From: Saccharomonospora azurea NA-128
GTDB lineage: Bacteria; Actinomycetota; Actinomycetes; Mycobacteriales; Pseudonocardiaceae
Assembly (NCBI RefSeq): GCF_000231055.2
Contig: NZ_CM001466.1
Location: forward strand, 2,663,025 to 2,727,024
DNA length: 64,000 nucleotides
Direction: 5' to 3'
Part shown: in pieces, positions 14,344 to 16,142 of the stretch
Numbering within the stretch: the stretch's first letter is position 1
Layout of the letters: every line of letters begins with the position of its first letter
Notes under the pieces: model-generated
What the model saw: the letters and a program-made list of their open reading frames with translations, nothing else
Database searches by the model: none
Told to the model about the DNA's origin: nothing
Program-made: the position numbers and the translations under genes

Positions 14344-14985
14344 TCAGACGAGCAACTGATCGATGTGCCCACGCGAGTCCTCGTGATACGCCACCGGCAG
14401 CCGGTGGTTCTTCGCCAGCAACGCCAACGTCGCCAGGTGTCCGTGTCCGCTCTCCGACGCCGACGACAGCTGCCGCCAGCCCACGCCGTGGACCGCGACC
14501 CAGACCCCCTCGCTCTTCGTCGCCGCCCACAGGTGCGTGATGGCCGCGCCGTGCACCCATCCGCCCGGCGAGGCGGACTGCCGGTCCTCGCCGCCCGGTC
14601 CCGGCGTCGGGGCCGGACTCGGCGCGGGACTCACCGGCGGAACCGGCTCCGCACCGGCCACACCGGACCCGCCGAACGGCCGAGGAGCGTCGAACGGCGG
14701 CCGATAGGGGTCCCAGCCCATGGGTTGCGGACGCGTGGGCGGCAGGTACGGGTCCCACCCGCTCGGATAGACCGGGCGCACCGGCGGCGAGTACGGGTCC
14801 CACCCGCTCGGCGCGACCGGCGCCGTGCGCGACGGCGGCGAGTACGGGTCCCAGCCCGTCGGCGGAAGCGGTACCGTCCCGCCCGGAACCGTCTTCTCCT
14901 CCGTCGGCTCGCTCTGCGGCGCCGTGGTGTCGGATTCGGCCCTGCCGGTGTGACCGTTGTGCTCGTTGACCATGTCCTGCGTCAT
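14344..14985 (-). CDS. GWDPY-repeat protein sharing a C-terminal module with the adjacent peptidase
   Basis: A 213-aa protein I do not recognise. The start ATG at 14985 has a GGAAG ribosome-binding site. Residues 1-40 are polar. Residues 44-97 hold four copies of GWDPYxPP (at 44, 61, 76 and 90), spaced 14-17 residues apart by Pro/Arg-rich linkers. Residues 110-140 are a Pro-rich linker (PVSPAPSPAPTPGPGG). Residues 142-213 form a compact C-terminal domain (VWVAVHGVGWRQLS, then HLATLALLAKNHRLPVAY). That domain resembles the last ~55 residues of the upstream C1 peptidase (both have GWxxLS followed by LATLAL). No signal peptide or membrane segment is visible. It lies 17 bp downstream of the peptidase gene, almost certainly in one operon, so it may be its substrate or partner. 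Confidence 0.85.
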   Translation of the reverse strand: MTQDMVNEHNGHTGRAESDTTAPQSEPTEEKTVPGGTVPLPPTGWDPYSPPSRTAPVAPSGWDPYSPPVRPVYPSGWDPYLPPTRPQPMGWDPYRPPFDAPRPFGGSGVAGAEPVPPVSPAPSPAPTPGPGGEDRQSASPGGWVHGAAITHLWAATKSEGVWVAVHGVGWRQLSSASESGHGHLATLALLAKNHRLPVAYHEDSRGHIDQLLV

Positions 14986-15002
14986 GTGCGTACTTCCTTC
15001 GC

Positions 15003-16142
15003 TCAGCCGATGAGATGGACGGCGCCGAGGTCCTGCCCCCTGACGAACGGCGCGCAGCCGAGCCCTCGCGCTCTGGCCAGCGCGAGCGTGGCGAGGTCGG
15101 CGGTCTGGTCCCGCGAGAGCCGGGTCCAACCCAGGTTCTCCAGGTAGGCCCAGCTGTCGTCGTGCGCGGAGGCGAACAGCCCGAGCGCACGCTGCGGTGG
15201 AAGCCAGGCGTGCAGATCCACACCCGTGCAGCCGAGGGTGGTCGGCCGCGGGTTCGGATAGTCCTCGATGAAGGCTTCTCCGTAGGCGATGCGCAGGAAC
15301 CCGTTCTCCCCCCAGTCGGGTCCCCACGAGTTCTTGGCGATCCAGCACCCGGCGTCGTCGTCCCAGCCGATGAGGGCGACGCAGTGTCCGCCGCTCGTCC
15401 GCTCGGTGGTGTGCCGGTAGACGCCGCCGGTGTAGTGGAACAGGTCGTCGTGCACCACGAGGCACGCCGTCACGGGCCCGTAGGTCCAGAGGTGCTCCTT
15501 GATGGCGACGGGATCGCGGCTCAGGTCGACGACGTCGGAAGCCCGCGCCAAGCGTTCGCGCCATCCGGCGGCGAGTGCCCCGGAGCCGTCCTCGGTGTAC
15601 GGGTAGTGGTCCTCGAAGGTGACGCCGAGGTCGCGGCAGTCGACGAGGAGCTCGTCGGGCCAGGTGCCGTCGGGCAGGATCGCCTCGCGCGCCGCCGCGT
15701 GTCCGAAGAACAGGTGCGCCTCGGACAGGTCCAGGGCCAGGCGGGGTGCCCGGCGCGTGTACGCCGCCGTGGTCTCCAGCGTGGCCAGCACCCCGAACGC
15801 ACTGCACGCCCCGCAGTCGCCCTGGTCCTTCACCGGCGTCACGTAGTTGACCCCGTCGACGTCGCGCAGGTCGAACGAGCGGGGCAGGTGCGGCGTCGGG
15901 GCGTGCTCGGTCTCCTCGTGCGTGTGTGGCGGGGCGAGCGCGGCCTCGGCCATCCGCGCGGGCAGGTCGGCTCGCGCGTCGATCTCCTCCGACGACGGCG
16001 CCGGAACCCCGAGGCGGCGCTTGCGACCGTCGCCCGCGAGCCTGCTCACGGGCGTCTCCCCGCACTGCCACGGATCACCCAGTGCGGCCAGGGAGTCGCG
16101 GATCGCCGCGATCTCCGAAGCGCACGAATGGTCTGGGCTCAC
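15003..16142 (-). CDS. Papain-like cysteine peptidase (family C1)
   Basis: A 379-aa protein whose core (about 88-310) is a papain fold with all catalytic positions visible: Gln107 and Cys113 in QGDCGACSAF, His253 in SGGHCVALIGW and Asn271 in AKNSWGPDWGENGFLRIAYG. The Trp that normally follows the catalytic Cys is Ser114. Residues 1-87 look like a short propeptide or regulatory arm with no signal peptide, so it is probably cytoplasmic. The last ~60 residues (SWAYLENLGWTRLS, then ADLATLALARARGL) extend beyond the papain domain and resemble the C-terminus of the downstream GWDPY protein. The GTG at 16142 has a GGAGG ribosome-binding site. C1 peptidases are uncommon in bacteria. It diverges from an ABC exporter gene. 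Confidence 0.9.
   Translation of the reverse strand: MSPDHSCASEIAAIRDSLAALGDPWQCGETPVSRLAGDGRKRRLGVPAPSSEEIDARADLPARMAEAALAPPHTHEETEHAPTPHLPRSFDLRDVDGVNYVTPVKDQGDCGACSAFGVLATLETTAAYTRRAPRLALDLSEAHLFFGHAAAREAILPDGTWPDELLVDCRDLGVTFEDHYPYTEDGSGALAAGWRERLARASDVVDLSRDPVAIKEHLWTYGPVTACLVVHDDLFHYTGGVYRHTTERTSGGHCVALIGWDDDAGCWIAKNSWGPDWGENGFLRIAYGEAFIEDYPNPRPTTLGCTGVDLHAWLPPQRALGLFASAHDDSWAYLENLGWTRLSRDQTADLATLALARARGLGCAPFVRGQDLGAVHLIG

Follow-up and report, generated by a model that had tools for sequence, protein, structure and literature searches.

Do two adjacent genes with a common C-terminal segment in Saccharomonospora azurea NA-128 encode partners, and what larger system do they belong to? 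The genes lie in a 64,000-nt stretch of this 4.76-Mb genome (contig NZ_CM001466.1, positions 2,663,025 to 2,727,024), which is called the window here and supplies the coordinates below. One encodes a papain-family peptidase (PEP), and the other a repeat protein (TAILP). Judged by sequence, their tails are homologous. The pair is not free-standing. It is part of a larger module of an extracytoplasmic function (ECF) sigma factor (SIG), a protein designated MID and a TPR-CHAT protein, usually with a chagasin-type gene. The pair consists of the following parts.

15003..16142, minus strand: PEP, papain-family (C1) peptidase of 379 aa (PF00112, E 3.5e-35, residues 86-289)
15006..15212, minus strand: C-terminal tail of PEP (residues 311-379), homologous by sequence to the TAILP tail and outside all Pfam and NCBIfam matches
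14344..14985, minus strand: TAILP, 213 aa, with an acidic start, Pro-rich repeats and a C-terminal tail
14695..14856, minus strand: the four GWDPYxPP repeats of TAILP (residues 44-97)
14347..14574, minus strand: C-terminal tail of TAILP (residues 138-213), OB-like fold predicted (AlphaFold2 and Foldseek)

PEP and TAILP both read along the minus strand, with a gap of 17 bp from PEP to TAILP, and are probably co-transcribed. The coordinates, the lengths, the gap and the four repeats had been reported in an initial annotation, and were borne out by the sequence. By profile and by a check of the catalytic residues, PEP is a C1 (papain) peptidase, with Q107, C113, H253 and N271 all in place. Trp usually follows the catalytic Cys in this family, and Cys-Trp was present in two solved cathepsin B-like chains used for comparison. 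In the window PEP, Ser follows C113 directly, as had been noticed before, and Trp was found after the catalytic position in none of 36 distinct PEPs. No signal peptide was visible by eye in PEP. TAILP had no match to Pfam, NCBIfam or PADLOC models. None of the five proteins of the cluster matched a PADLOC model, and on this ground the idea that the pair is an established defence system was rejected.

The domain common to the two proteins spans about 70 residues. It had been described as GWxxLS followed 8-12 residues later by LATLAL. Both motifs were present, but the spacing did not hold (LATLAL starts 6 residues past GWxxLS in PEP and 9 in TAILP), and LATLAL as such was not kept in the tails of relatives. 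When 12 tails were aligned jointly, the invariant columns were W, L, W, G, W, L and L.

The two window tails gave a Smith-Waterman score of 46, against 25.6 +/- 4.9 for shuffles, of which 7 in 2000 reached 46. Profile-profile comparison of the two tail families gave E values on the order of 1e-6 (2.4e-6 and 1.2e-6; probability 89-91%). A hidden Markov model (HMM) of TAILP tails only, run on the six frames of 52 loci, placed 23 of the 28 PEP tails of relatives above the first unrelated match (E 0.42). Three of these 23 were chimeric tails, and excluding the chimeras left 20 of 25. Likeness of the tails by chance was rejected because of the shuffles, the profile-profile E values and the TAILP-only HMM, and the proposal of a common C-terminal module thus stood.

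The chimeric tails came from three loci (L084, L087 and L091) in which TAILP was gone and PEP terminated in TAILP's own last residues (IDQLIV). L084 and L087 share one join point, and that of L091 is different. We interpreted these tails to have arisen, as far as the sequences tell, by two deletions between the PEP and TAILP tails.

The distribution of the pair was surveyed in 150 genomes of Pseudonocardiaceae. A PEP match was present in 34 of them, full or nearly full length in 29, and TAILP adjoined PEP in 26 of these 29. The two genes were therefore conserved together, so that both checks set by the initial annotation, on profile alignment of the tails and on conservation of the pair, came out in its favour. 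The 2x2 table (26/3/1/120) gave a Fisher p of 1e-24 with kinship ignored. One genome, G045, had TAILP and a chagasin-like open reading frame (ORF) near a contig end, and PEP was not found in it. The nearest named relative among those compared was Saccharomonospora sp. NB11 (L106), with a PEP 91% identical.

One TAILP-tail pattern, run against a collection of 84,980 species, found 19 loci, of which 18 were titled Pseudonocardiaceae. The 19th (L119, JOAA01000004.1) was titled Rhodococcus rhodnii and is probably mislabelled; its PEP (the same as that of L083) grouped with that of Kibdelosporangium aridum (L120, the same as L082). A draw of 392 genomes of the phylum, including its own, gave one other PEP match at 1e-20, which spanned query residues 80-295 and did not cover the tail. 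In a search of 396 phylum genomes with the tail there were, besides the window, six weak matches (L097-L102; E 1.6e-4 to 8.5e-3). These were taken as chance after inspection, and the tail as a widespread module was set aside. The L098 match was deep within a long frame, and L099-L101 resembled the tail in nothing; L097 presumably resembles an epimerase-type enzyme, and L102 presumably has repeats of another kind. Since no more than 5 to 14 candidates were scored for each genome in the phylum searches, they do not prove that the tail is absent beyond the family. Within the genomes searched, no pair with the tails turned up outside Pseudonocardiaceae.

Downstream of TAILP, on the same strand, are the other members of the module.

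13885..14211, minus strand: degenerate chagasin-like (I42) open frame (locus HMM, 4.1e-9)
13175..13888, minus strand: SIG, ECF-type sigma factor (TIGR02937, E 3.9e-20, 72.1 bits against a cut-off of 42.9)
12718..13182, minus strand: MID, 154 aa, between SIG and CHAT, conserved beside SIG
10132..12708, minus strand: TPR-CHAT protein, caspase-like (PF12770, E 4.5e-28; H738 and C778 present)

The 455-bp gap from TAILP to SIG holds the chagasin-like frame. The true start of SIG is probably inside the 13175..13888 frame, judging from the relatives. For the TPR part of the TPR-CHAT protein, TPR_12 (7.9e-6) and TPR_1 (1.5e-5) were found, and all TPR models were below their curated cut-offs. MID gave only sub-threshold matches in a Pfam scan (e.g. 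CarboxypepD_reg, 0.014) and none that was convincing among solved structures (best E 0.49).

The order PEP-TAILP-SIG-MID-CHAT was complete in 20 of 29 loci, the window included. In a second locus table, consisting of the 36 distinct PEPs with neighbours scored within 9 kb, both SIG and MID were present in 34 loci (the others were L077, at a contig end, and L086) and CHAT in 25. In the family survey, MID was matched in 78 of the 150 genomes, and CHAT, paralogues included, in 98; in the phylum, MID was matched in 19 of 386 genomes, its own included. The core is thus more widely distributed than PEP-TAILP. Relatives of MID were also seen in other actinobacterial families (L195-L205); a single contig of G502 had three of the matches. 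On the other side of PEP are divergent ABC transporter genes (16289-18838, plus strand), which were near PEP in many but not all relatives, and the same was true of ALDH and FUSC genes.

Comparison of the loci brought out two non-coding elements.

16188..16217, minus strand: promoter-like element, TGTATCTG...TCCTGT, upstream of PEP
14288..14320, minus strand: hairpin between TAILP and the next gene, with loop region CGAGGGGG, kept in relatives

The first, GTATC with a weaker second half, looks like an ECF promoter. The pattern [N]GTATC[CT]-N15-18-TC[ACT] was present upstream of PEP in 28 of 29 loci, against 0.44% of 11,100 random 130-bp windows. The tighter TGTATCTG-N15-17-TCCTRT occurred 11 times in 10 genomes, 10 times at PEP, and its backward control once. 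Only the rarity elsewhere is informative here, because the patterns were derived from the same loci. In 19 of the 27 PEP loci compared, GTATC also occurred ahead of SIG, between -115 and -125 relative to a fixed codon of that gene; its average frequency is 0.24 per kb. We infer that SIG uses this element.

The hairpin 3' of TAILP, which may be a terminator or an RNA element, has a perfect 10-bp stem in the window. Its core pattern occurred once each in 9 of 10 genomes, and the backward control gave 3 matches. The best Rfam match (E 0.92) was far under the gathering threshold. In the pair-count alignment, the longer stems were out of register, and no covariation count was drawn. Hairpins with the same loop and other stems were seen by eye upstream of SIG in about 10 of 40 MID loci that lack PEP.

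Structure prediction of the two C-termini, envisaged in the initial annotation, was confident for TAILP and too weak for PEP. AlphaFold2 gave the TAILP tail a pLDDT of 89.3 and a pTM of 0.78, with the predicted order strand-strand-strand-helix-strand-strand. The best Foldseek match had an E of 9.4e-3, a query TM-score of 0.80 and a probability of 1.00; none reached E 0.001. Among the 50 matches listed, 49 were B subunits of the AB5 type or subunits of pertussis toxin, which have the OB (oligonucleotide/oligosaccharide-binding) fold. A sequence search of the PDB with the tail found no match up to E 1. On this model the tail may oligomerise, the likeness to AB5 B subunits being one of fold and not of kinship. 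The full-length PEP model was weak (mean pLDDT 66, tail blocks 41-60), and the fold of the PEP tail is for that reason drawn from homology and a similar strand order. AB5 B subunits, which the TAILP tail resembles in predicted shape only, form a secreted pentamer, whereas the tail proteins show no secretion signal by eye. The TAILP/PEP pair should not be filed as an AB5 toxin.

The 36 distinct PEPs all kept the Gln, His and Asn, and the nucleophile was Cys in 29 and Ser in 7. Ordinary cysteine proteolysis therefore cannot be the role in every lineage. All seven Ser PEPs were in one Kibdelosporangium-like group, in which K. banguiense (L122) retains Cys. Together they make a clade of eight, for which parsimony gave two changes; there may have been a single Cys/Ser change in it. 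The ratio of nonsynonymous to synonymous substitution rates (dN/dS) was 0.10-0.30 among the Ser-type PEPs (15 pairs), which indicated purifying selection, and 0.10-0.27 among five Saccharomonospora Cys forms (10 pairs).

A chagasin-like gene followed TAILP in 24 of the 29 Cys loci (counting the degenerate window copy, the frame-split L067 and the contig-cut L077) and in none of the 7 Ser loci. CHAT was seen in 25 of the 29 Cys loci and in none of the 7 Ser loci; for TAILP the counts were 29 of 29 and 4 of 7. L122 has a Cys PEP and neither chagasin nor CHAT; our guess from this one locus is that loss of chagasin and CHAT preceded the Cys change. Most relatives with a Cys-type PEP have an intact chagasin gene in the same place, and all three that were scanned matched PF09394 (L090, 6.7e-19; L078, 4e-14; L086, 2e-17). 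In the window copy, the Gly-Tyr and Arg-Pro-Trp motifs appeared altered by eye. A second, more distant C1 peptidase (L092, G131:C14) has a chagasin-like ORF 10 bp downstream.

The repeats of TAILP varied: a looser form of the motif was present in 0 to 13 copies in the TAILPs of relatives. The same place in the module was examined in the 40 MID loci without PEP (some of these genomes have PEP elsewhere). In 20 of them, by eye, the element was followed by a short, disordered and acidic, Pro- or Gly-rich ORF, preceded by a ribosome-binding site, upstream of SIG.

PEP-less loci with element and ORF: L144-147, L149, L151, L153, L156, L158, L159
The same, continued: L175-177, L183, L184, L186, L188-191

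Fourteen of these ORFs were 39-79 aa long, those of L153 and L189-191 were 85-125 aa, and those of L158 and L159 were >200 aa. The remaining 20 loci had no convincing ORF by eye, one having merely 112 bases upstream. Disordered repeat proteins were seen in the slot before SIG, without PEP, in L158, L159, L189-L191 and L153 (GATEPS, TGATDPSSPP, GGIPHAE, GMGHPD).

The motif G-x(0-2)-[WY]-[DE]-P-[NYFH]-x(1-4)-P, written after viewing both sets, was present in 24 of the six-frame ORFs of 68 loci (1,137,208 residues), namely 18 TAILPs and 6 small ORFs. One copy of G-x-[WY]-[DE]-P was in the small ORFs of 6 of the 40 PEP-less loci. By genus, the six motif-bearing small ORFs divide five to one, and they therefore count as two lineages. 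In the 20 PEP-less loci scanned with the tail HMMs (the first half of the 40), no tail was detected. The repeats of TAILP resemble multiple copies of a peptide motif that the module already had. A reading as ribosomally synthesized and post-translationally modified peptides was set aside, as no modification enzyme was noticed nearby, without a model-based search for one.

Is such a module known? The gene layout was not found in searches of an open-access library, from which most subscription papers are missing. Among the nearest known systems is the type III-E CRISPR system CASP (Csx29, Csx30 and CASP-sigma), in which a TPR-CHAT protease cleaves Csx30, an inhibitor of an ECF-like sigma factor (PMC10028731). 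The accessible part of that paper describes, as here, a single locus with a TPR-CHAT protein, an ECF-type sigma factor and one more protein, and with sigma motifs inside it. On the other hand, Csx30 reaches residue 565 in that account against the 154 aa of MID, the likeness is in the kinds of genes, the third excepted, and papain, tail and chagasin are not mentioned in that part (PMC10028731). The TPR-CHAT protein scored 16.3 bits with the Csx29 model, far below the cut-off of 300, and the module is therefore not to be filed as a CASP system.

EACC2-caspase neighbourhoods, predicted to be conflict systems, also combine a caspase-like peptidase, an ECF sigma factor and TPR genes. In the accessible part of their description the peptidase is an EACC2-caspase, not CHAT as here, and neither a pair with a papain nor a common tail or a repeat peptide is mentioned (PMC8195603). 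The C1 papain and I42 chagasin systems, as far as the available portions of two papers describe them, likewise have a peptidase and an inhibitor, and here the two genes are close together in most relatives. The present locus differs from them in the lack of a signal peptide by eye, the tail domain, the link to a sigma factor and the non-Trp residue after Cys (PMC2607524, PMC2680270).

We propose, tentatively and at rather less than even confidence, that PEP and TAILP, joined through their tails, serve as output arm for a dedicated ECF sigma module, with TAILP as substrate or scaffold. By analogy with CASP, SIG would stay inactive until a trigger activates the TPR-CHAT protease, which would perhaps release it by cleaving MID. 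The freed SIG could then act on the promoter of PEP-TAILP and, in most relatives, also on that of its own gene. The products PEP and TAILP would assemble via their shared OB-like tails, and this pairing would put the disordered GWDPY arm beside PEP, as its substrate or as a dedicated scaffold. Where intact, the chagasin-type protein would restrain free PEP. The whole would be a triggered proteolytic circuit in the cytosol, as no signal peptide was visible by eye. The initial annotation had read the two genes as a protease-substrate or protease-adaptor pair; its observation was confirmed, and this interpretation is partly supported. A similar motif occurs in small peptides that lack the tail, and this inclines us slightly towards a substrate or scaffold role for TAILP.

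Several observations weigh against this proposal. Within the DNA covered, CHAT was not seen in 11 of the 36 PEP loci (one is cut by a contig end), and L086 has neither SIG nor MID within 9 kb. The promoter patterns were tuned on the loci in which they were then counted. The SIG element was absent in the window, in the other four Saccharomonospora loci and in three more, and its second half fitted only partially in several loci. In 7 of 25 relatives, TAILP had no repeat motif and retained the tail, and five of the six motif-bearing small ORFs were from one genus. The chagasin copy of the window is degenerate, with no PF09394 match up to E 10. Purifying selection on the Ser PEPs means that PEP is useful without Cys. 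The correlations with Cys and Ser are not independent, because the Ser loci are nearly one clade.

One alternative, unlikely though by no means negligible, is that TAILP regulates PEP instead of being its substrate. The tails would pair, and the Pro-rich arm would shield or position PEP, alongside the chagasin-type inhibitor. The conserved part of TAILP is indeed the tail, its repeats being variable or missing, and most of the loci carry an inhibitor gene. However, the expansion of the repeats, and the presence of a similar motif in small peptides from two further genera, suggest that the repeats themselves matter.

Also unlikely is that the tail is a common targeting domain, by which PEP and TAILP would each dock onto a third partner without acting on one another, TAILP being a sigma-driven effector peptide and PEP a later addition. 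Consistent with this, short ORFs behind the same element exist without PEP, and G045 has its tail protein and chagasin-like ORF where PEP was not found. On the other hand, Ser-type loci without CHAT keep the tail, and the tail HMMs came up empty in the PEP-less loci searched.

It is improbable that PEP is mainly a binding protein, with cysteine catalysis as a side function that one group of loci lost or altered. The Ser nucleophile beside unchanged Gln, His and Asn, and a dN/dS of the Ser forms as low as that of the five Saccharomonospora Cys forms, would fit such a role. But 29 of the 36 PEPs keep all four catalytic residues, 24 of those 29 loci have a chagasin-like gene, and Ser could itself be the nucleophile.

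Least probable, and only barely worth entertaining, is that PEP-TAILP and SIG-MID-CHAT are neighbours by descent only and functionally unlinked: every tail-bearing PEP found belongs to one family, and the L086 pair has no SIG and MID nearby, but the ABC, ALDH and FUSC flanks move or vanish in many loci while PEP, TAILP, SIG and MID stay together, and the promoter-like element is common to both parts.

To return to the proposal of a tail-joined output arm, it could be one branch of something broader. On this extension, which we regard as speculative and rather doubtful, the Pseudonocardiaceae would have a new peptide-making or signalling system, in which the ECF sigma-MID-TPR/CHAT core drives a family of hypervariable disordered peptides from their own promoter. 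In one branch the peptide would have become a multi-copy repeat protein fused to an oligomerising OB-like tail, and PEP would have acquired this tail too, so as to be tethered to its multi-copy substrate and checked by a chagasin of its own. If the proposal is true, a single bacterial locus would encode a circuit of two cysteine proteases with unrelated folds, an inhibitor of proteases and a sigma factor of its own, with an enzyme and its partner matched through a common C-terminal domain. The locus also offers natural experiments (replacement of the nucleophile, a missing partner together with a chimeric tail, and loss of the inhibitor), which make these roles directly testable. The small ORFs behind the promoter-like element provide a concrete handle on the function of sigma/CHAT modules.
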